Shown here: piece by piece, positions 1,048 to 11,837 of the stretch
Layout: each line of letters opens with the position of its first letter
Position numbering within the stretch: the first letter of the stretch is position 1
NCBI GenBank assembly: GCA_027491785.1
Contig: JAOZGJ010000068.1
Coordinates: 1 to 46,402, forward strand
Reading direction: 5' to 3'
Source: Thermoproteota archaeon
GTDB lineage: Archaea; Korarchaeota; Korarchaeia; Korarchaeales; Korarchaeaceae
Length of the DNA stretch: 46,402 bases
The notes under the pieces: generated by a model
Databases searched by the model: none
Told to the model about the DNA's origin: nothing
Seen by the model: only the letters and a program-made list of their open reading frames with translations
Program-made: the position numbers and the translations under genes

Positions 1048-2817
1048 ATGGCTAGAGTAAGGAATTTTCTTCTCATATCTCTCCTGATTTTAGTTTTAGC
1101 ATCTCCTAGTTACTCTTTAGCTGATGATAATAATTTTACATTGAGGATTGCCATACCTAGCCCACCACAAACCCTTAATGTTTGGTCAGGTACTTCTACG
1201 TGGACCATAATGGTCCTAGATCTCGTATATGAACCTCTAGCGGTTATAAGTCCGGAGTCTAGGTTTATACCTTGGCTAGCTGAATCATGGCAAGCTTCCC
1301 CTGATGGTAGGACATGGACTATCGAGCTAAGAAAAGGAATAAAGTGGCAAGATGGTTTTCCATTCACAGCAGAGGACGTGAAGTTCACTTTTGATTACTT
1401 CAAGAAGGATCCCACTGCCAGAAGGGGATATTATGATATGGAGTATCTGGACCGAGTAGAGGTAGTAGATAACTATACGGTGAGAATACACCTCATTAAG
1501 CCTTTTGTGGCGGTTGTTAGTACGATGTTCACCGATCCGATAGTACCAAAGCATATATGGGAGCCTATAGTAAGCGAAAAAGGATATGTCTCCTCAAAAT
1601 ATGAACCTAAGCTCTCCGAGATGGTGGGGACAGGGCCTTACAAGATCGTGGAGTATAAAACTAACGAGTATATAAAATTAGCCGTAAATGAAAACTACTG
1701 GAGGGGGGCGCCGGCTGTTAAGAACATAGTCATACAATTCGTTGGAGATGGGGATGTTCAGGTACTTATGATAAAGAAGGGCGAGATCGATGCTGCCATA
1801 CATTTAGCAATAAATCCAGCTGTTGAAAAGAGCCTAAAATCGTCGGGTATAAAGGTTCATAGGTATCTAAGACCCTACTTCTACCATTGGGGTTTCAACC
1901 TGAACAGGTTTCCATTCAATGAATCCGAGTTCAGGAAAGCTATGGCCTGTGCCATAAACCTGAGTGAGATAGTTAAGGTAGCTAGATTGGGAGCGGGCGA
2001 GATAGGAAGCTATGGAGTTATCCCTCCCGTGTGGAAGGATTGGTACTGTGAAAAAGCTGCAAAAATGTATTCCTATAACCCAGATAAAGCTAGAAGTATT
2101 CTAGATAAGCTTGGATGGATCGATAGAGATGGAGATGGTATAAGGGAAACTCCTGACGGCAGGAAATTATCGTTCGATATATACGTCCCAAGCTCTGATC
2201 CCGCAAGGATAAGAGCTGCTGGTATGATAAGGGAGTATCTAAAGGAGATAGGGGTTGAGGCTAAGGTCAGAGTTGGGGATTGGAGAGGAGTTATATGGCC
2301 CGGAATAAAGGCCCATAAATTCGATAGTTTCCTGCTTGGATCAGGCACATGGGCCGATCCGGATTTCATGAGAATCAGGTTTGAAACCAATGCCTCCGCT
2401 AATTACTACGGACTCTCTGATGCTGAGCTGGATAATCTGCTTGAAGAGCAGGCTATAACATTGAACTCGACGAAAAGGAAGGAGATAGTATGTAAAATAC
2501 AGGAAAGGTTAGCCAACATCCTTCCGCTAATAACCCTATATTATCCGGTGATAATAAATCCCTATAGGACCGATAGATTCGAGGGATGGGTGCCGGTAAA
2601 GTTCAACTGGATATTCAACAGGTGGACCATCTTAAACTTGAAACCTAAAGCCGGAGCTTCTCATACACTAACTGAAAGCTTCACTTTAAGCTCTAAAGCT
2701 GAGCAGAGAACGGAAGAAGCGTATACCCAATATAACTCAGCGATAATAATACTGTTCGCAGTGCTAGCTGCCGCTATAATAGCTATAATTCTCTGGATCC
2801 TTCTAAGAAAGCTGTAA
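1048..2817 (+). CDS. Peptide ABC transporter substrate-binding protein (SBP family 5), membrane-anchored
   Basis: This 589-residue extracytoplasmic solute-binding protein is of the DppA/OppA family and captures peptides or similar ligands for the permeases downstream. A Sec-type signal peptide occupies about residues 1-26 (hydrophobic LISLLILVLA, cut near YSLA). Family features include the early VLDLVYEPL segment, LAESWQ, KWQDGFPFTAEDVKFTFDY and GTGPY. A C-terminal hydrophobic helix (about 565-587) followed by RKL looks like an archaeal membrane anchor in place of a lipid anchor. The next gene starts 51 bases on, after a T-run, so this gene may be expressed more strongly than the permeases. 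The ligand cannot be read from sequence. Confidence 0.93.
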   Translation: MARVRNFLLISLLILVLASPSYSLADDNNFTLRIAIPSPPQTLNVWSGTSTWTIMVLDLVYEPLAVISPESRFIPWLAESWQASPDGRTWTIELRKGIKWQDGFPFTAEDVKFTFDYFKKDPTARRGYYDMEYLDRVEVVDNYTVRIHLIKPFVAVVSTMFTDPIVPKHIWEPIVSEKGYVSSKYEPKLSEMVGTGPYKIVEYKTNEYIKLAVNENYWRGAPAVKNIVIQFVGDGDVQVLMIKKGEIDAAIHLAINPAVEKSLKSSGIKVHRYLRPYFYHWGFNLNRFPFNESEFRKAMACAINLSEIVKVARLGAGEIGSYGVIPPVWKDWYCEKAAKMYSYNPDKARSILDKLGWIDRDGDGIRETPDGRKLSFDIYVPSSDPARIRAAGMIREYLKEIGVEAKVRVGDWRGVIWPGIKAHKFDSFLLGSGTWADPDFMRIRFETNASANYYGLSDAELDNLLEEQAITLNSTKRKEIVCKIQERLANILPLITLYYPVIINPYRTDRFEGWVPVKFNWIFNRWTILNLKPKAGASHTLTESFTLSSKAEQRTEEAYTQYNSAIIILFAVLAAAIIAIILWILLRKL

Positions 2818-2837
2818 ACTCCACTCACTTTACCTCA

Positions 2838-2850
2838 CTTACTTTTTTCA
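2838..2850 (+). terminator. T-rich partial terminator between binding protein and permease genes
   Basis: A CTTACTTTTTTC run lies 20-33 bases after the binding-protein stop and before the permease start. Archaeal termination often uses such T-runs. Here it would allow excess binding protein over permease. It has weak support. Confidence 0.3.
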
Positions 2851-2868
2851 AATGAGCACATCTGGGGC

Positions 2869-3852
2869 GTGAGGATGGGCAACTATACAGAATTCTTCAT
2901 CAAAAGAGTACTGGCTATATTTCTAACATTCATTGCAGCTATAACTCTCGTCTTTATCGTAATAAGGCTCACTGGTGATCCATTTAGTACTTTAGTTTTC
3001 GATGATCCTAGAATAACGCCTGAACAGATAGAGAGGATAAGGGCAGTCTATGGCTTGAATAAGCCATTATATGAGCAATATTTCCTCTTCCTTCTCAACG
3101 TCTTTAGAGGGGAGCTAGGATACTCTCTCTACTATCAAAAGCCTGTGATTGATGTGATAATGGAAAGGCTGCCTTGGACCCTTCTACTGCTTTTGCCAGC
3201 AATAACGATATCCACGATTCTCAGCATATATCTTGGTGCAAAGACGGCTTGGAAGCACGGCACTAAATACGATACTACCGTAACGACGTTAGCCCTTTTC
3301 TTGAGGAGCACTCCCTACTTCTGGCTGGCGCTCATTTTTCTTATGATATTCAGCTATTACTTAGGTATATTCCCCTTATCCGGCTCAGTTACACCTGCAA
3401 AGGAGTTCCACTCGCTCATTAGCTACCTAGTAGACATTCTCTGGCATGCATCATTACCAATAGCCGTTCTTGTCGTTAGGGAAGTGGGCATGTATATGCT
3501 CTACATGAGGAACTCGATGATTGAAGTATTAAGCCAAGATTTCGTTTGGATGGCTGGGTTAGAGGGCCTTTCAGAGAGTAAAATAATGCATGGAGCAGCA
3601 AGGGTAGCTGTTCTTCCCATGGTCACGGTCACGGCTCTCAGACTTGGTTTCATGATAAATGGGGCTGTACTAACTGAGACGGTATTTAGTTACCCTGGAA
3701 TGGGAAGGCTCATCTTTGAGGCCATAATGAATAGCGACTACTTTCTGATCCAAGGGGCTTTCCTTATAATGACAGCAACTGTTCTAATAGCTAATTTAGT
3801 GGCAGATATACTCTATGGTTTGCTAGATCCTAGAATAAGGATCTCTAGGTGA
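2869..3852 (+). CDS. Peptide ABC transporter permease (DppB type)
   Basis: The 327-residue inner permease has about six membrane helices and is the DppB/OppB half of a peptide importer. The N-terminal segment FFIKRVLAIFLTFIAAITLVF is the usual first helix. IRLTGDPF and the ERLPWTLLLLLPA stretch match the family, and the EAA loop lies around residues 220-250. The start is GTG at 2869 or the in-frame ATG at 2875; GGGGCG precedes. The second permease starts 4 bases after the stop, so the two are co-transcribed and form a heterodimer in the membrane. Confidence 0.93.
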   Translation: MRMGNYTEFFIKRVLAIFLTFIAAITLVFIVIRLTGDPFSTLVFDDPRITPEQIERIRAVYGLNKPLYEQYFLFLLNVFRGELGYSLYYQKPVIDVIMERLPWTLLLLLPAITISTILSIYLGAKTAWKHGTKYDTTVTTLALFLRSTPYFWLALIFLMIFSYYLGIFPLSGSVTPAKEFHSLISYLVDILWHASLPIAVLVVREVGMYMLYMRNSMIEVLSQDFVWMAGLEGLSESKIMHGAARVAVLPMVTVTALRLGFMINGAVLTETVFSYPGMGRLIFEAIMNSDYFLIQGAFLIMTATVLIANLVADILYGLLDPRIRISR

Positions 3853-3856
3853 TTGT

Positions 3857-4780
3857 ATGATTGCAAGGAAAGAGGAAATCAAGAAAGAATTGAAGAGAAA
3901 GGGATTAAGGAGGAAAATTAGAGGAATAAAGGAATTCTTCTTCATACTAAAGGGAAATAGGCTGACCCTTGCTGGTATGGTCTTATTCATGATGGTAGCA
4001 GCGATGGCACTATTTGCCCCCTACATAGCACCCTACAACCCTTATGTGAGAACAGGTGAGCCTCTAGAGCCTCCAAGCTGGAGACACTTACTTGGAACCA
4101 ACGATGCAGGTCAAGATATACTAAGCGAGCTCATTTATGGTGCTAGAATATCCTTAGCTGTGGGATTAGTGTCGGCAATATCTTCTGTATTCATAGGCAC
4201 GGTAGTAGGGATCACTAGCGGTTACATGGGCGGAGCCGTAGATGAAGTCTTAATGAGGATAGTAGATCTCTTCATGGTTATTCCTAGTCTCTTGCTTGTC
4301 ATATTCCTGGCTGTAACCCTTAAAGGAACTTGGCTTGGGGACCACATGTTCCTATTGATAATAACCGCCATAACCTTAACTAGCTGGCCATCGGTAGCTA
4401 GGGTCGTCAGGAGTGTTATCCTATCCTTAAAGGAAAGACCTTTTGTAGAAAGCGTGCGTGCGCTGGGAGCATCCAATATTTATGTAATGGTAAGGTATCT
4501 GCTTCCTTATGCATCTCCCATAATATTAGCTGAAACCCTGCTTAGAACTGCAAGCAATATGATAATGGAAGCATCCCTTAGCTTCCTAGGTCTCGGAGAT
4601 GTTACGCAGAAAAGCTGGGGAATGATGCTGCACTACGCCTTCTCTAGGCAAGCCATAGTACTCGGACTCTGGACATGGGTCATACCTCCCGGCCTGATGA
4701 TATCCCTGAGTGTGCTATCCCTATTCCTAGTCGGACAGGCCTTAGAGATATACGTGAACCCGAGGTTGAGGAGAAGATAG
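3857..4780 (+). CDS. Peptide ABC transporter permease (DppC type)
   Basis: This is the 307-residue DppC/OppC permease. Residues 1-30 are a lysine/arginine-rich cytoplasmic leader, followed by a first helix (MVLFMMVAAMALFAPYIAPY) and the family hallmark HLLGTNDAGQDILSELIYGAR. The EAA-type loop is near VRALGASNIYVMVRYLLP, and LSFLGLG plus WGMMLHYA are typical. It pairs with the upstream permease. The operon appears to end here, with no ATPase following; the ATPase is the divergent gene at the left edge. Confidence 0.94.
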   Translation: MIARKEEIKKELKRKGLRRKIRGIKEFFFILKGNRLTLAGMVLFMMVAAMALFAPYIAPYNPYVRTGEPLEPPSWRHLLGTNDAGQDILSELIYGARISLAVGLVSAISSVFIGTVVGITSGYMGGAVDEVLMRIVDLFMVIPSLLLVIFLAVTLKGTWLGDHMFLLIITAITLTSWPSVARVVRSVILSLKERPFVESVRALGASNIYVMVRYLLPYASPIILAETLLRTASNMIMEASLSFLGLGDVTQKSWGMMLHYAFSRQAIVLGLWTWVIPPGLMISLSVLSLFLVGQALEIYVNPRLRRR

Positions 4781-4979: not shown

Positions 4980-5423
4980 TCAAGCTGTCTTCCTTGAGAT
5001 GGTTCTAATCATCGCTTCGAAATCTCTCTGAATCTGTTTCACTATGAATCTCATGATGGAGATCATGCCAAGTGACCTTTCCAGCAGCACCTCTCCCTCC
5101 AGTACTTTCGCCCTGAACCAGGGTGGGGCGTAATCTATTACCCTCACATCCACAGGAATCCCTATGATGCGACTTAGCTCATCTGATAAGGTCTCCTCGT
5201 AGTAAGGCAGCTCCTCGTAAGGGACTCTGCCACCAGCGAGAACTCCGACATCTATATCCCTGAACACTGGCGATGAGACGAAGCTTCCGTAGATGAGGGC
5301 AGCTAGGATCTCTTCTTTGGGTAGGAGGGCCTCTAGCAACTTACGCTTAACTTCCCCTTTCTCGGAATCGGAAAGCCTGTAGAAGGTGAACCTCCGCCTG
5401 TCCTCACGGATCCTCAGAGACAT
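4980..5423 (-). CDS. Minimal nucleotidyltransferase (MNT), MntA-like antitoxin
   Basis: This 147-residue MNT-fold protein shows GS at 46-47, DID at 56-58 and a third acidic residue in VDV at 91-93, the metal-binding set of the DNA polymerase beta-like fold. The spacing between GS and DID is 8, a little shorter than the common 10. MntA proteins neutralise HEPN toxins by adding AMP groups to a Tyr of the toxin. The gene overlaps the end of the upstream HEPN gene by 20 bases, so the two are translationally linked. The pairing supports a HepT/MntA (type VII) toxin-antitoxin module. Function is inferred from motif and context. Confidence 0.82.
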   Translation of the reverse strand: MSLRIREDRRRFTFYRLSDSEKGEVKRKLLEALLPKEEILAALIYGSFVSSPVFRDIDVGVLAGGRVPYEELPYYEETLSDELSRIIGIPVDVRVIDYAPPWFRAKVLEGEVLLERSLGMISIMRFIVKQIQRDFEAMIRTISRKTA

Positions 5424-5838
5424 AAGCCCTCACCTCCTCCAAGAATGATTCTATCGCCTCTATCCCGCCACCTCTTGCCTCCTCATATAACCTGAGATCA
5501 TCCACCTCCCAGTACCTGTGAACCAGCATGTTCCTCAGCGATGCAAGTCTCTCCATTTTAGTACCCACGGATGGTCTCACGACTCCCTTCCTGTATAATT
5601 CGCTGAAGGACTCCCTGTATCCTCTGGGTAGCACCCCGAAATCCCTCTCCAATATAGAAACAGCGATTTTAGATAATGATTCGACAATTACTATGAGGAG
5701 ATACCTCAACGCGTACGGGTTTCTCCTATCCGACAGATATTCATCGATGGAGAGCTTACAGATTTCCTTTAGACTGGATAAATAATCTGAAACCTCTTCT
5801 ATTAAGCTCAGAACCATGTTCCTATCAACATTCGTCAT
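5404..5838 (-). CDS. HEPN-domain protein, HepT-like toxin (DUF86 type)
   Basis: This 144-residue all-helical HEPN protein carries RNMLVHRY at 102-109, an exact R-x4-H-x-Y motif. In characterised HepT toxins the Arg and His make the RNase site and the Tyr is the residue AMPylated by MntA. It lies upstream of and overlaps the MNT gene. The start is ATG at 5838 with a TATA-like TTTAAAA 28-39 bases upstream, so the message would be nearly leaderless. The target RNA is unknown. These pairs are common in thermophilic archaea. Confidence 0.82.
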   Translation of the reverse strand: MTNVDRNMVLSLIEEVSDYLSSLKEICKLSIDEYLSDRRNPYALRYLLIVIVESLSKIAVSILERDFGVLPRGYRESFSELYRKGVVRPSVGTKMERLASLRNMLVHRYWEVDDLRLYEEARGGGIEAIESFLEEVRAYVSEDP

Positions 5839-6159: not shown

Positions 6160-7461
6160 TCAGATCAAGCTAGCTGTTTCGTCTATCTTATCTGATTTCA
6201 GTCTGTCATATAAGGCTGCAACTACAGGAGAGGCTCTAACTTCGTGGACCACTTTCCTATATATATGCTCTAGGTTCGCAGGGTTCTCAGGATCTCCCGG
6301 TGGGTAATCTATTCTCTCATTCCTAGATACTTCCCCTCTGACCTCGACTATCGAGGACTGCTTCTCTGGAAACTCCACTGACAGCTCCGGGTTTATCACT
6401 ACTTCTACCTTCCTCTCTAGGGCCTTCACCCTAGTATCCTCGAGCCCCCTCTCCAGCTCCCCCAAACCTACCCTCCCATAAATGAGAGCGAGCGCCACCA
6501 GGTAGGTCAGACTGAACCTAGCCTGATCCACGCTCCTCGGTTCCTTAATGTTCGCGACCTTCGCCGCCTCTTCGAATATCTCCACCCTGACCCCACCCAC
6601 CTCCTCCGGTTTCACCTCATCGCTCAACATAATCGCAGCTGTTATAGCGGTATGCGTATGCCTACAAGTGGGAAAGAATTTATAGCCGTTTAGCGTTATC
6701 GCATAATCCCATTTAGGATTTAATGCTTTCTCTATATCGCAATCAGGTGCCATGTTCTTACATAAACCCCTTTCATCTTCTAAGGCATTTAAATTTGTTC
6801 TGATACCGTCCCTTGCCATTAAAGATGATGTTACTCCGAGGAAAGCCGCATGTCCGGGGCTGAATGGCTTAACTCCAGAACCATAGGATATGAATCCCCA
6901 GAGCCCCGATGTGTAGTACGCTGCTATGGCAACTGCGTGGGATGCTACCTCGTCATCTAATCCCAGTACTCTAGAGGCTGCCGCCGCAGCCCCTAAAGAT
7001 CCTGCTGTAGCAGTGGTATGCCATATAGCGTAGTGAGACCTACCAAAGGCCTTACCAAACCGTGCAGCAATCTCATATCCTACGATTACCGCTTCAAGGA
7101 GAGATTTCCAGCTTACATTCCCCTCACCCAATGCCAGAGCAGCAGGTACAACGGCGCTCCCAGCATGAACAAATCCCTGCCTTAGCCAATCGTCATATTC
7201 TAGGGAATGGGCCGCAAATCCATTAACCATGGCTGCCATGGAAGGTGAAGACCTCCACCAAGCTCCCAAGATGGAAGAGCCACTGTTGGTGGGATACGCT
7301 ATTGAAGCAAATCTCCTGACCCGTTCTTCTCTCTCGAATCCCATTATCGCTACACCGATGGTATCTAGGAGAGCTTTCTTAGATTCTTCCTTCACGTACT
7401 CAGGTAAGGAATCATACTCCCAAGACCATACTTGTGACACTACCTCCTCTATCGCCGACAT
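6160..7461 (-). CDS. MmgE/PrpD family protein (2-methylcitrate dehydratase / aconitate decarboxylase superfamily)
   Basis: This 433-residue MmgE/PrpD protein belongs to a family that includes 2-methylcitrate dehydratase, cis-aconitate decarboxylase and iminodisuccinate epimerase. Family signatures are LLDTIGVAIMG near the N-terminus, NGFAAHSLEYDDW (the dehydratase His-Asp region), HAGSAVVPAALAL, GYEIAARFG, WHTTATAGSLGAAAAA, FSPGHAAFLG and FFPTCRHTHT. It follows the CoA lyase gene by 85 bases and has its own TATA-like box (7482-7497), so it may be transcribed alone as well as with the cluster. It probably supplies or consumes the acid handled by the ligase and lyase. The exact substrate is not determined, and the prpD name is not justified. 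Confidence 0.88.
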   Translation of the reverse strand: MSAIEEVVSQVWSWEYDSLPEYVKEESKKALLDTIGVAIMGFEREERVRRFASIAYPTNSGSSILGAWWRSSPSMAAMVNGFAAHSLEYDDWLRQGFVHAGSAVVPAALALGEGNVSWKSLLEAVIVGYEIAARFGKAFGRSHYAIWHTTATAGSLGAAAAASRVLGLDDEVASHAVAIAAYYTSGLWGFISYGSGVKPFSPGHAAFLGVTSSLMARDGIRTNLNALEDERGLCKNMAPDCDIEKALNPKWDYAITLNGYKFFPTCRHTHTAITAAIMLSDEVKPEEVGGVRVEIFEEAAKVANIKEPRSVDQARFSLTYLVALALIYGRVGLGELERGLEDTRVKALERKVEVVINPELSVEFPEKQSSIVEVRGEVSRNERIDYPPGDPENPANLEHIYRKVVHEVRASPVVAALYDRLKSDKIDETASLI

Positions 7462-7481
7462 CTTGGATTTACCCTTGGAGA

Positions 7482-7497
7482 TGATAAAAATTATCTT
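7482..7497 (-). promoter_or_regulatory. TATA-like box for the PrpD-family gene
   Basis: On the minus strand, an A/T stretch reading TAAGATAATTTTTATC lies 21-36 bases before the ATG at 7461, close to the archaeal TATA position for a leaderless or nearly leaderless message. No SD precedes the start. Confidence 0.35.
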
Positions 7498-7546
7498 AAA
7501 GTAAAGGTCGCGCGTAAGTTGTCGGAAGTAAAGCTAAGAAGCTGTA

Positions 7547-8440
7547 TTAAGTGGCAGATCTCCTCTCTATCTCCTTTGCGACTTCTAAGAACGATTTTGC
7601 TTGCTCATAGCTCATTCTATCTATCATCATTCCCCTGAATGATGCCGCTCCTAGGCCATGCGAAATGGCCTCCTCATAGGCTTTTACTATCTCCATGGCT
7701 TCTTTCACCTCTGATTCGCTTGGTGTAAAGACTTCATTTATTATAGGAATATGAGAAGGATGTATTGCATATTTCCCCTTGAATCCCAATCTTTTAGCTA
7801 AAAGTGATTGTTCTCTTACCCCCTTTCTATCTATTATCATTCCTAAGAATGGCGTATCTATTGCTAGGATCTTAGCTGATGCGGCAGCTACGCTAACCTT
7901 AGATCTGGCATATAATAGCTCCATCTCATCGCTTGAAAGATCGGACACGCTCCTTCCCAGATCCCTAAGGAAATCCCCCATACCGAATGAGAGGGCTGTT
8001 ATCCTATCCGAGGATAAAGCTATATCCAAAGATCTCTCTACGCCCATAGCACTCTCTATCAGTGGAATTATCTTGACCTCATCTAAGCCTCTTTCATTTT
8101 CGAAGTGCAGTAATTTTTCCTCTAGCTTCCAAACGTCCTCCGGTACCTCTGCCTTAGGTAGAACTATACCATCAATCCCTTCCCTTATCACGAAGTCCAG
8201 ATCTTCATCCAACATTCCCGTTGTTAGAGAGTTTACTCTTGCAAATACCAGCCCTCTGAATCTTCCCCTCTCCTCCTTCAGGAATTCCCTAACTAACCAT
8301 CTAGCTGTTTCCTTCTCTCCTACAGGTACCGCATCTTCCATGTCAAGCACTATCACATCAGCTTTGCTTCTCAGCGAACTTAACATGAGCCTCCAGCTAT
8401 TAGCTGGAACGAAGAGCAGAGATCTAGCCAAAATTCCCAT
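7547..8440 (-). CDS. CitE-type CoA lyase (HpcH/HpaI family; malyl-/citramalyl-CoA lyase-like)
   Basis: This 297-residue TIM-barrel lyase of the CitE/malyl-CoA lyase family shows LDMEDAV (32-38), the substrate Arg in FARVN (68), the metal ligand Glu in IESAMGV (129) and Asp in FGMGDF (156), and IHPSHI near the C-terminus. Family members cleave 3-hydroxyacyl-CoA thioesters such as malyl-CoA or citramalyl-CoA into acetyl-CoA plus glyoxylate or pyruvate. Its ATG shares one base with the stop of the CoA-ligase alpha gene (TAATG), with a GAGGAGG site just before it. No citrate lyase alpha or acyl-carrier genes are near, so true citrate lyase is unlikely. The most economical reading is that the ligase makes the thioester and this enzyme cleaves it. 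Confidence 0.85.
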   Translation of the reverse strand: MGILARSLLFVPANSWRLMLSSLRSKADVIVLDMEDAVPVGEKETARWLVREFLKEERGRFRGLVFARVNSLTTGMLDEDLDFVIREGIDGIVLPKAEVPEDVWKLEEKLLHFENERGLDEVKIIPLIESAMGVERSLDIALSSDRITALSFGMGDFLRDLGRSVSDLSSDEMELLYARSKVSVAAASAKILAIDTPFLGMIIDRKGVREQSLLAKRLGFKGKYAIHPSHIPIINEVFTPSESEVKEAMEIVKAYEEAISHGLGAASFRGMMIDRMSYEQAKSFLEVAKEIERRSAT

Positions 8441-9330
8441 TACAGCACCTCCTCAAGCAAATTCGTTATTTGTTTTGGGGATTCTGCTACTAAGGCACCT
8501 GCTCCCTTCAGTGCCTTTATCTTGCTCTCTGCAGAGCCTTTACTTCCCGTCACAATAGCACTTGCATGGGAGAATCTTATCCCGGTTGGAAGCATCCTTC
8601 CAGCCACATAAGCTATTAGAGGCTTCGTGAAGCCACCCTTTTTCATGAATTCAGCAGCTTCCTCCTCTTGGACTCCTCCTATCTCTGCAAACAGGACTAC
8701 AGCTTCAGTTTCGTCATCCTTCTCAAATAACGCTAATAACTCTGCCTCTGTTAATCCAACCAAAGGTTCACTTCCGGTATGCACTGCTGTCGATATACCG
8801 AATCCCGCCTTACTTACGGCCCATGATGTAGTTGTAGTCTGACCGCCGCTTCTGGATATGATCCCAACCCTACCCGGAGCGAAAGCCTCATTGGCCAGCT
8901 CAAGCGAACCACCAACCCATCCCATTACGGCTTTTCCAGGACTTATAACTCCAAACGATCCTGGGCCCTGTATCCTTACTTCCTTCCTCCTTGCATATGA
9001 CAGGATGGCCATGGCATCATGGATAGGTACTCTCTCGGTTGGTATGAGGATATAACCTATTCCAGAGTCAATAGCTTCCATTACTGCCTCTCTTAAGTGG
9101 GCTGGAGGTACCAGAGCTATAGACGCATCTACTGGGCCCACTTCATCCATAGCCTCCTTTATACTATTGAACACCGGAACGCCCCATACCTCGGCACCTC
9201 CTCTACCTGGGGTTACACCTGCTACAACTTTAGTCCCGTACTCCAGCATATATCGGGTCGCAAACTCCCCAGTTCTTCCAGTTATTCCCTGAACTAGGAC
9301 CTTGGTCTCCTCATTTATGAGAATCGCCAT
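8440..9330 (-). CDS. Acyl-CoA ligase alpha subunit (SucD/MtkB-like, ADP-forming)
   Basis: This is the CoA-binding subunit of a succinyl-CoA-synthetase-like ligase, about 296 residues. QGITGRTGEFATRYM is the Rossmann CoA-binding segment and GVTPGRGG follows. The phosphorylated His is conserved in FSHASAIV near residue 255, followed by GSKGSAES. GTG at 9333 also fits, but ATG at 9330 shares a base with the ferredoxin stop (TGATG) and follows GAGGTG. It lies between the ferredoxin and CoA lyase genes in one transcript. The same arrangement (beta, alpha, lyase) occurs for malate-CoA ligase and malyl-CoA lyase in the serine cycle. A substrate of that type is inferred, not shown. Confidence 0.87.
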   Translation of the reverse strand: MAILINEETKVLVQGITGRTGEFATRYMLEYGTKVVAGVTPGRGGAEVWGVPVFNSIKEAMDEVGPVDASIALVPPAHLREAVMEAIDSGIGYILIPTERVPIHDAMAILSYARRKEVRIQGPGSFGVISPGKAVMGWVGGSLELANEAFAPGRVGIISRSGGQTTTTSWAVSKAGFGISTAVHTGSEPLVGLTEAELLALFEKDDETEAVVLFAEIGGVQEEEAAEFMKKGGFTKPLIAYVAGRMLPTGIRFSHASAIVTGSKGSAESKIKALKGAGALVAESPKQITNLLEEVL

Positions 9331-9593
9331 CACATCACCTCTAATGGGACCCTTACCTCTATGGCAGAGTTACCATACCACGAGCAGTAGATCTCACATG
9401 CCAGACATTCATTATCAAGTCTAACTGCCTCTTTTGGTGAAACAGCTAACTTAGGCTTCCCCCCTTCTATCTTGAGGACATTCCTACCGTATAACCTGCA
9501 TGCCTTAATACATGCGAATCCGCAGTCGGGAGCAATGCATTTATTGTAATCTATGATTACCTCAGCTGTCCTCGTCTTGAACCTTAACTCCAT
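9330..9593 (-). CDS. Small ferredoxin-like Fe-S protein inserted between CoA-ligase subunits
   Basis: This 87-residue protein has seven Cys: 19, 24, 28, 32 (C-x4-C-x3-C-x3-C) and 63, 66, 70 (C-x2-C-x3-C). The spacing resembles a 4Fe-4S ferredoxin but departs from the classic C-x2-C-x2-C-x3-C. One [4Fe-4S] cluster is likely and a second uncertain. It overlaps the beta gene by 10 bases and the alpha gene by one, so it is made in step with both subunits. That suggests a structural or redox subunit of the ligase complex. Known succinyl-CoA synthetases have no Fe-S subunit, so the role is unknown. Confidence 0.8.
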   Translation of the reverse strand: MELRFKTRTAEVIIDYNKCIAPDCGFACIKACRLYGRNVLKIEGGKPKLAVSPKEAVRLDNECLACEIYCSWYGNSAIEVRVPLEVM

Positions 9594-10849
9594 TCCCTTT
9601 CCCTCCTGTAATCCTCAACTAGCGACTTCATCCTGTCTGCTATATACTCTGTTTCGTATATGTAATCTCTACCATACAGCTCAAACCTTATAGGTAACCC
9701 TCTAATACCTCTCCTTATCAGCTCATGACTCTCCTTCTCCTTATTACCCGCCAATAGAATTATGGCAGGAAATCCCTTTCTATTCTCAAGCATCTCATTG
9801 AATGCCTTCACTACGGCATTGGCGTGATGCCATTGCTCTTGGCTGGCCATCACACTACCCATCATGATGTAGCCTTCTATTCCTGGGATGGAGAGAATCG
9901 TTTTGATGACCCTATAGACCTTAGAGGCTGGCGGATCTCCACTGGTATCAGCATAATTTGCGAGCTTAAGTCCCCTTCTTATGAGCGCATCGGCTGCGAG
10001 CATGGCACCTCCTCCCCCTATCCCATGGAATCCTATGTAACCTCCCTGCTCAGTATCAGTTGCTAATTGAACGAAGTATCCAGTTCCCCTCGGATCTCTA
10101 TCATCCCAATACCACATCCTCTTCTCCAGCTGGGTTGGTTCCCTGTTCAGATCCTTAGGAAGCTCAATGGTTAGATCAGAATGTCTGAAGAGAGCGTGAT
10201 CATCTACATCTATCCTAGCATCTAGGGCAACGAGCCCATCGTTAGTCAGGGCAATGGGATTTATCTCGACGCTCTTAGCATCATACCCCACGAATGCATT
10301 GTACATTTTTCTAGCTACCATGGCAGCTTCCTCTGGTAATGGCATACCTATTTTCCTGAAATCCTCCGATATTCTCTCCTTAACTAGGCCCTCGATATAG
10401 TCTATGGGTAGTCTAAGAACATCACTTGACCTCCTCTCAATCCCAGATCCTCCTACTGGACTTGCCAGTAGTTCTGGGGACCTGTAACTCATTGAATCAT
10501 TCACAATCACGCTGAGGAATGCTTCGGATTTTATCTCTAGCTTCCTCTCTATTAAAAGCTTTTTAGGCTTAAATCCCCTGAAATATGAGGACAACATCTC
10601 CTCTGCTATCTTCTCTACCTCCTCAGGCGAGGAAGAAAACCTTACGGCTCCTACCTCATATCTTCCAGTAAATGGAAGCTGCGCCTTGATCGCAACATGT
10701 CCACCTAATTCATAAGCAATGCTCCTTGCTTCTTCTGGAGAAGAAGCAACACGACCCTCGGGAACTCTAATTCCATATTCACTAAGTATCTCCTTCGACT
10801 GATATTCGAGAAGCTTGGCCCTAAAATCACCCCCAAACTTCCCTTCCAT
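9584..10849 (-). CDS. Acyl-CoA ligase beta subunit (SucC/MtkA-like, ATP-grasp)
   Basis: This 421-residue nucleotide-binding subunit is somewhat longer than E. coli SucC (388). The N-terminal ATP-grasp part opens with LLEYQSKEILSEYGIRVPEG and has the nucleotide Lys in VAIKAQ. ALDARIDVDDHALFRHSDL resembles the metal-binding region of SucC/MtkA. The C-terminal domain has GFHGIGGGGAMLAADALIRRG and GYIMMGSVMAS, analogous to the glycine-rich ligase core. It is the first gene of the ligase-ferredoxin-ligase-lyase transcript. A TATA-like box lies 29-41 bases upstream and no SD is visible, so the message may be leaderless. Confidence 0.87.
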   Translation of the reverse strand: MEGKFGGDFRAKLLEYQSKEILSEYGIRVPEGRVASSPEEARSIAYELGGHVAIKAQLPFTGRYEVGAVRFSSSPEEVEKIAEEMLSSYFRGFKPKKLLIERKLEIKSEAFLSVIVNDSMSYRSPELLASPVGGSGIERRSSDVLRLPIDYIEGLVKERISEDFRKIGMPLPEEAAMVARKMYNAFVGYDAKSVEINPIALTNDGLVALDARIDVDDHALFRHSDLTIELPKDLNREPTQLEKRMWYWDDRDPRGTGYFVQLATDTEQGGYIGFHGIGGGGAMLAADALIRRGLKLANYADTSGDPPASKVYRVIKTILSIPGIEGYIMMGSVMASQEQWHHANAVVKAFNEMLENRKGFPAIILLAGNKEKESHELIRRGIRGLPIRFELYGRDYIYETEYIADRMKSLVEDYRREREWS

Positions 10850-10931: not shown

Positions 10932-11837
10932 TTACCTCGCTGGTTCTCCCCTCAATATCTCCTCTAAGGGCTTTTTCCATAGAAGATGGAAGACCCTCTT
11001 CGATCCTCTCTCGTATACTGCTTCGAAGTCTATGTAGCCGAGGGACATATAGTAGATCATTGCCTCAGCAGTGTACTTCCTCCATTGACTTACAGTTCCC
11101 TTGGATCTAGCATCATCCACGCTGTAGGGTATCTCAACAAGCACTAAGTCACTATTTACCTTCTTAAATCCCGAAGGAATATCTGAATCGAACTCTAGCA
11201 CTTCCACAGCCCCTGCTTCTAAGGCTTCCTGTAGACTAGGTGATCTCAGTTCTCCTTTAGCCTTTCTCCTTACCCTCTCGCTCTTTAGGAACCACCAAAC
11301 CTTAAGTCTGTCTGATCTCAATCCCCTATTTATGGCATCGTTCATCTCCCCATAGTAGTTGATAACATATTCCCAGCTTACAACTCCTAATTTACCCAAA
11401 TTAAAGCGAGTATTTAGCCCCTGAAGTGGATCGAACGTCCATCTCGCTCTATCTAATCCCTGAGCTAAAGCAACCTCTCTCTGCGCTTGCTTTATCCTGA
11501 ACCCTAGTCCAGAATATTTTAACTCCTCAATAACAGCGCTTTGATGTGAGTAGTGATATAATCCCCTTGAGTCCCTAGCCAGAAAACCCCAAGCGAATCC
11601 AACTACATTACCAGAATCTAAATCGAAGGCACCAATCACAATACCTGAGTTATCAGATGCAGCTCTGAGGACATGAGAAGGTGTTGCATCAGTTCTATCT
11701 TTTCCCATCCTCCAAGCGGATGCTTGGACCTCTACCAGCTGCCTAAACTCCTCCGGTTTCTCAATGTGCCTTATCTCTAGCCTCCTCACATTGCCACTTC
11801 TGTCCATCAATTCTATCCTACCGAGATACCCTGTCAT
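10932..11837 (-). CDS. GNAT-superfamily predicted acetyltransferase (COG3375-like)
   Basis: This 301-residue protein resembles the archaeal/bacterial COG3375 group of predicted GNAT acetyltransferases. It shows IRHIEKPEEFRQLVEVQASAW near the N-terminus, VVGFAWGF, the acetyl-CoA-side region HYSHQSAVIEELKYSGLGFRIK, and a conserved WTFDPLQGLNTRFNLGKLGV block. The C-terminal third is family-specific. The acceptor substrate is unknown. It is transcribed in the same direction as the CoA-ligase cluster but is separated by 82 bases that contain that cluster's TATA box, so it is probably its own unit. ATG at 11837 is used; 11807 is an alternative. Confidence 0.75.
   Translation of the reverse strand: MTGYLGRIELMDRSGNVRRLEIRHIEKPEEFRQLVEVQASAWRMGKDRTDATPSHVLRAASDNSGIVIGAFDLDSGNVVGFAWGFLARDSRGLYHYSHQSAVIEELKYSGLGFRIKQAQREVALAQGLDRARWTFDPLQGLNTRFNLGKLGVVSWEYVINYYGEMNDAINRGLRSDRLKVWWFLKSERVRRKAKGELRSPSLQEALEAGAVEVLEFDSDIPSGFKKVNSDLVLVEIPYSVDDARSKGTVSQWRKYTAEAMIYYMSLGYIDFEAVYERGSKRVFHLLWKKPLEEILRGEPAR

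Follow-up and report, generated by a model that had tools for sequence, protein, structure and literature searches.

Among the systems closest to the locus described here, the methylaspartate pathway relies on mesaconase, which is homologous to class I fumarase, to produce (S)-citramalate (PMC4682846), and the pseudomonad MmgE/PrpD protein found beside a citramalyl-coenzyme A (CoA) lyase is a methylsuccinate isomerase (PMC12290011). An ATP-citrate lyase (ACL) of low similarity has been reported for Nitrospina (PMC3578206). A search of the open-access literature (subscription papers lay outside it) turned up no iron-sulfur (Fe-S) subunit in the citryl-/succinyl-CoA synthetase superfamily, and no citramalate-CoA ligase either. 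The DNA analysed here, called the window, is the whole 46,402-nucleotide stretch of contig JAOZGJ010000068.1 (assembly GCA_027491785.1) from a korarchaeal Thermoproteota archaeon. Its minus strand carries a cassette of five genes, all with open reading frames, for the beta subunit of a CoA ligase, an Fe-S protein, the alpha subunit of the ligase, a CitE-type CoA lyase and a PrpD-family protein. The ligase belongs to a clade of ADP-forming-type CoA ligases, present in archaea and bacteria, whose members have an iron-sulfur domain, either as a separate subunit or fused. The cassette probably encodes a two-step, ATP-driven C-C cleavage of a hydroxy-diacid, most likely (S)-citramalate.

The beta gene (9584-10849, minus strand like the other four) encodes 421 amino acids with an ATP-grasp domain (PF08442, 3e-35) and a citrate-binding-type C-terminal domain (PF16114 Citrate_bind, 4.6e-8). 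It overlaps by 10 bases the gene of the 87-amino-acid ferredoxin-like Fe-S subunit (9330-9593), which in turn overlaps by 4 bases the gene of the CoA-binding alpha subunit (8440-9333, GTG start, 297 amino acids, PF02629/PF00549). A single base is shared between the latter and the gene of the CitE/HpcH-type lyase (7547-8440, 297 amino acids, PF03328, 3.7e-40). A gap of 85 bases separates the lyase gene from that of the MmgE/PrpD-family protein (6160-7461, 433 amino acids, PF03972 and PF19305), a predicted dicarboxylate isomerase whose nearest solved structure is the IDS epimerase 2hp3. An earlier note on this DNA had described four overlapping genes followed by a PrpD gene on one strand, and the coordinates bear this out. 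The Pfam domains ATP-grasp_2, CoA_binding/Ligase_CoA, HpcH_HpaI and MmgE_PrpD N and C are clearly placed in the beta, alpha, lyase and PrpD proteins, respectively. The Fe-S protein stayed under every Pfam cut-off, and NCBIfam gave no equivalog assignment for any of the five proteins.

The cassette is conserved. The Fe-S protein is present in 11 of the 29 genomes of the phylum that were searched, and an independent search with the beta subunit picked out these 11 genomes again, with strong scores of 433-937 bits, and gave only weak matches at the level of succinyl-CoA synthetase (SCS) elsewhere; both genes are absent from the other 18. Conservation of the beta-ferredoxin-alpha order in other archaea, which the earlier note had proposed to check, holds for the phylum: the three genes are contiguous in all 11 cassette-bearing genomes. 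The CitE-type lyase gene comes next in all 10 genomes whose contig continues, and the PrpD gene in most. In a wider scan, GTDB genomes were searched with an alignment of the Fe-S protein, giving 89 relatives, of which 80 were kept. These include archaea (Archaeoglobi, Thermoproteota, Geothermarchaeota) and bacteria (Deltaproteobacteria, Chloroflexota, Acidobacteriota, KSB1, Planctomycetes, Kiritimatiellae, Calditrichota and Bacillota, among others), so that the supposed archaeal route is not confined to archaea. The Fe-S domain is flanked by beta and alpha in nearly all relatives; in 40 of the 80 loci it forms the C-terminal part of a fused beta chain. These natural fusions agree with the earlier proposal that the Fe-S protein belongs to the ligase and, together with the co-occurrence in 11 of 11 genomes, rule out a chance insertion of a ferredoxin gene in one genome.

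As the wide scan had begun from the Fe-S protein, a reverse check was undertaken with a profile of beta only. Applied to the genomes that hold 15 known loci, the profile gave more than 490 bits for members of the family and less than 320 bits for other ligases, and the family was rare in two other phyla (2 of 301 and 6 of 295 genomes sampled). At every examined locus above 490 bits, an Fe-S domain or gene is present; among the loci examined in these beta-led searches, none had a family member lacking it. A full operon (beta, Fe-S, alpha, lyase, PrpD, DUF1847, a gene of no known family and SdhA) is seen in L136 (G498:C1:808000-824000), from an archaeal genome consisting of a single contig of 2,076,931 bases.

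The earlier note had compared the ligase with succinyl-CoA-type enzymes; its phylogenetic affinity is with citryl-CoA synthetase (CCS). In our tree the Fe-S ligases form one clade (support 100/99), which is joined, again at 100/99, with CCS and the ligase of locus L135, excluding SCS and with it the organism's own SCS; CCS is represented by one sequence on a long branch, which makes its exact place less sure. The C-terminal domain of beta matches CCS (6hxq, 1e-11), then ACL (1.4e-8) and SucC (3ufx, 9e-7), and the nearest PDB match of the whole chain is the Thermus SucC 3ufx. Both subunits lie under the NCBIfam cut-offs for succinate--CoA ligase (beta 173.8 versus 370 bits; alpha 295.8 versus 336 bits, and for TIGR01019 298 versus 353 bits). 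These scores and the separate SCS gene on contig C81 of the same genome rule out an ordinary succinyl-CoA synthetase. The family signature SGDPPASKVYR ... GSVMASQEQWHHA (residues 303-343, 9821-9943, minus strand) was aligned with SCS, CCS and ACL references; where the family has the loop SG[DN]PPASKVYR and ASQEQ-x-H, SCS has a GGIVRCD-type sequence. His256 of alpha (FSHASAI, codon at 8566-8568, minus strand), conserved across the aligned alpha subunits, is the predicted phospho-histidine, presumably with the role known for the SCS family. The window genome also encodes citrate synthase, aconitases and a succinate dehydrogenase operon, and has fumarase fragments at contig ends. Locus L135 itself (G040:C158:2000-8000, 319 bits) encodes a CCS-like ligase next to genes for a CitE-type lyase, a PrpD homologue and an SdhA-like protein; this ligase joins CCS in the tree, outside the Fe-S clade. 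The genome of L135 also holds a member of the Fe-S family, and the pair lends itself to asking what the Fe-S domain contributes.

The Fe-S protein of the window has seven cysteines, Cys19, Cys24, Cys28 and Cys32 in motif 1 (9498-9539, minus strand) and Cys63, Cys66 and Cys70 in motif 2 (9384-9416, minus strand), where Asp60 occupies the position of the first Cys of most relatives. The count given in the earlier note is thus right, and the spacing that it called unusual is a modified dicluster ferredoxin pattern, C-x2-C-x4-C-x3-C ... C-x2-C-x2-C-x3-C in the family. Of the 2[4Fe-4S] features, seven of the eight Cys are present, with Asp at the eighth. Six of the eight ligand columns are 94-100% Cys in the 80 sequences; the second Cys column of motif 1 reaches 70%, partly as a result of a two-residue shift in the close kin of the window protein. 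The last Cys of motif 1 and the first of motif 2 bind one and the same cluster in the classical ferredoxin fold; in part of the family, the window protein included, one cluster should therefore be held by three Cys and an Asp. Both positions are Cys in 52 of the 80 sequences; Asp is found at the motif 2 position in 23, at the motif 1 position in five and at both in none, against about 1.4 expected, so this mutual exclusion alone is not significant. Iron binding is seemingly retained, as is suggested by Asp being the sole substitute for Cys at these two positions. The predicted structure (pLDDT 92) has a ferredoxin-like shape. Its Foldseek match to the Thermotoga maritima ferredoxin 1vjw is weak (TMt 0.65, E 0.17), as are those to Sulfolobus RNA polymerase subunit D (E 0.14-0.23), which are among the top matches. 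Sequence searches of the protein against the PDB and against plasmids gave no match. For the fused relative L037, the predicted fold (pLDDT 90, pTM 0.82) has a ligase part that matches SCS, CCS and ACL.

The lyase carries R68, E129, D156 and D274 in motifs usual for acyl-CoA lyases. Its PF03328 score (138 bits, cut-off 25) places it in the HpcH/HpaI (CitE-type) family, and its nearest solved structures are the malyl-CoA/methylmalyl-CoA lyase 5ugr and CLYBL (5vxc). The tree splits the ligase family into two branches, one with CitE-type lyases, which includes the window, and one with citrate-synthase-type citryl-CoA lyases; the type of lyase partner tracks the ligase tree with one change. The citryl-CoA lyase branch has genes that pass an NCBIfam threshold for citryl-CoA lyase, as well as genes of the aconitase and isocitrate dehydrogenase families, which suggests citrate as the substrate of many members. 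In the Chloroflexi member L078, alpha is fused to a citrate-synthase domain, giving an ACL-like architecture with an Fe-S beta subunit. Alpha subunits of ~570-770 amino acids occur in L067, L071, L078, L081, L093, L098, L100 and L101, of which L078 is the one checked. The Bacillota members L060, L061 and L076 of the citryl-CoA lyase branch have a methylaspartate ammonia-lyase gene instead. An HD-domain protein of ~180 amino acids (cluster c2) is encoded in 15 loci, mostly of this branch (e.g., L062, L063, L075, L084-L090 and L095).

Cassettes of the CitE branch repeatedly have a PrpD homologue, a class I fumarase or an SdhA/SdhB-like gene beside them. Two relatives of this branch lie in methylaspartate operons. 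That of L056 encodes a GlmS-like B12 protein, MutE, methylaspartate ammonia-lyase, beta-FeS, alpha, the CitE lyase and class I fumarase, and thus every step from glutamate to citramalate; that of L073 encodes MutL, MutE, methylaspartate ammonia-lyase, beta-FeS, alpha and lyase.

The PrpD homologue has both Pfam domains of its family, and its H85, E88, H99, H148, K198 and K261 match the conserved residues, those that bind carboxylate among them, which in IDS epimerase numbering are H85, D88, H99, H150, K198 and K266 (PMC12290011). H99 and Y144 align with H99 and Y145 of IDS, the two-base His + Tyr set proposed for the isomerases and epimerases of the MmgE/PrpD family (PMC12290011). The earlier note had named a decarboxylase and a dehydratase as members of the superfamily; this set is found instead of a clear dehydratase signature, and a 2-methylcitrate dehydratase is unsupported, with a TIGR02330 score far under the cut-off (44.5 versus 458 bits). 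The Tyr is also present in BsIRG1 and so is not specific to isomerases, which makes the favoured assignment, an isomerase that supplies methylsuccinate or a related acid, a weak one. The window operon holds no methylsuccinyl-CoA dehydrogenase gene.

The gene order, the fusions, the catalytic His, the family memberships and the co-occurrence are read from the sequences themselves; the reactions proposed for them are as follows. The alpha-beta ligase, with its integral Fe-S domain, would form the CoA thioester of the hydroxy-diacid from ATP and CoA via phospho-His256. The CitE-type lyase would then cleave the thioester to acetyl-CoA and pyruvate. The PrpD homologue probably supplies the pathway by isomerising a 2-substituted succinate, e.g., methylsuccinate. 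Oxidation and hydration would be performed by SdhA-like and fumarase/mesaconase enzymes, often encoded in the same operon in relatives and elsewhere in the window genome. Stabilisation or regulation of the ligase is the most likely task of the Fe-S domain. The earlier suggestion of a dedicated ligase and C-C lyase pair for a hydroxy-diacid is supported. Citramalate is the best-supported substrate for the methylaspartate sub-branch, because the operons of L056 and L073 lead into the ligase and lyase and the route makes citramalate. By extension from that sub-branch, it is also the leading candidate for the window.

Two other substrates have to be weighed against citramalate. With citrate, or 2-methylcitrate, an Fe-S citryl-CoA synthetase and a CitE-type citryl-CoA lyase would form a two-enzyme ATP-citrate lyase, with PrpD acting on the matching tricarboxylate. 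This appears unlikely. The closest characterised ligase in the tree is indeed citryl-CoA synthetase, beta has the Citrate_bind match, the lyase scores best with citE (198 bits) and the sister branch adjoins genes for citryl-CoA lyase, aconitase and isocitrate dehydrogenase; the window branch, however, lacks neighbouring genes for a citrate-synthase-type lyase, aconitase and isocitrate dehydrogenase, its near-pocket residues differ from those of the sister branch in the alignment (GNKE versus R-GGN), and relatives within it stand in methylaspartate operons. Rather improbable is malate, or a larger 2-substituted malate derived from alkyl- or aryl-succinate, the cassette being then a general degradation module for substituted succinates. 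The malyl-CoA/methylmalyl-CoA lyase as nearest solved structure and the SdhA/SdhB-like genes beside the cassettes fit this possibility, as do the deltaproteobacterial loci, where two or three distinct PrpD homologues are encoded along with ABC transporters of the branched-chain type, but the methylaspartate operons indicate a C5 acid, and no alkylsuccinate-forming enzyme was found, none having been sought. Several observations weigh against the citramalate pathway with an Fe-S ligase as a whole. The lyase is below the equivalog cut-offs (citE 198 versus 443 bits, RipC 155 versus 375 bits), and genes for mesaconase, a dehydrogenase or the methylaspartate steps are missing from the window operon. 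The relatives with methylaspartate operons fall in another sub-branch of the CitE clade than the window, so the substrate may have shifted. The motif 1 Cys are lost in L096 and L097, with motif 2 retained, and at the L135 locus, with the same lyase and PrpD neighbours, no Fe-S match was found; the cluster therefore seems dispensable for the basic chemistry.

What the Fe-S domain does is a related question. Since the ligation needs no electrons, a structural or regulatory role looks likelier than a redox reaction. A purely structural domain without redox or substrate role, as the ferredoxin-like one in subunit D of archaeal RNA polymerase may be, is a serious contender, if somewhat short of an even chance; the weak Foldseek matches to that subunit and the loss of motif 1 Cys in some members agree with it, while the near-invariance of Cys at six of the eight ligand positions and the replacement at the two cluster II positions examined by Asp only, a possible iron ligand, speak against it. 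More tentatively, the domain may be active in a C-C cleaving CoA ligase, either with the Asp-ligated cluster binding the hydroxy-acid at a labile iron, as in aconitase, or by gating the ligase through its redox state. The family would then supply the first Fe-S members of the SCS superfamily.

Other genes surround the cassette in the window. A peptide-type ABC transporter lies on the plus strand (1048-4780), with a binding protein (1048-2817) and two permeases (2869-3852 and 3857-4780); an ATPase (1-978) is on the opposite strand to them. A permease homologue also adjoins PrpD in L016 (10065-10988), and for this reason the transporter may import the pathway substrate. On the minus strand, an overlapping gene pair at 4980-5838 resembles the nucleotidyltransferase and HEPN-type protein that make up minimal toxin-antitoxin systems. 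A 301-amino-acid protein without Pfam or NCBIfam match (10932-11837, minus strand), acetyltransferase-like by eye, has counterparts of 76-79% identity close to the cassette in six congeneric relatives.

The cassette would offer an ATP-dependent cleavage of citramalate, and in the sister branch probably of citrate, in anaerobes and thermophiles. This would affect the calling of carbon-fixation and C5-dicarboxylate pathways in genomes without recognised ATP-citrate lyase or CoA transferases.

In comparison with known systems, the ligase shares with citryl-CoA synthetase (CcsA/CcsB, Hydrogenobacter thermophilus, 6hxq), its nearest characterised relative, the alpha/beta fold, the phospho-His and an NPPA-type loop. 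CCS has no Fe-S domain and its partner lyase is of citrate synthase fold, a partner type met only in the sister branch; in the window, the SQEQ loop differs, and an Fe-S subunit and an HpcH/CitE-type lyase are present. Succinyl-CoA synthetase (SucCD) has the same overall fold and gives the best whole-length PDB match (3ufx), but its NCBIfam cut-offs are not reached, its GGIVRCD-type loop is replaced and the organism has its own SCS. The citrate-binding-type C-terminal domain recalls ATP-citrate lyase, as does the alpha fusion of the Chloroflexi relative; the window, however, has an Fe-S domain and lacks the citrate-synthase domain and the ACL-type GGSIANFT sequence. In the pseudomonad itaconate/methylsuccinate cluster (Ict, Ich, Ccl, Mcd, Msi; PMC12290011), a citramalyl-CoA lyase and an MmgE/PrpD protein are likewise clustered; CoA is added early there by a transferase, whereas a late, ATP-driven step by the Fe-S ligase is proposed for the window. 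The clostridial methylaspartate pathway (PMC4682846) also ends with a cleavage of citramalate. Its citramalate lyase (CitDEF-type) yields pyruvate and acetate, whereas the ligase and lyase of the window would give acetyl-CoA.

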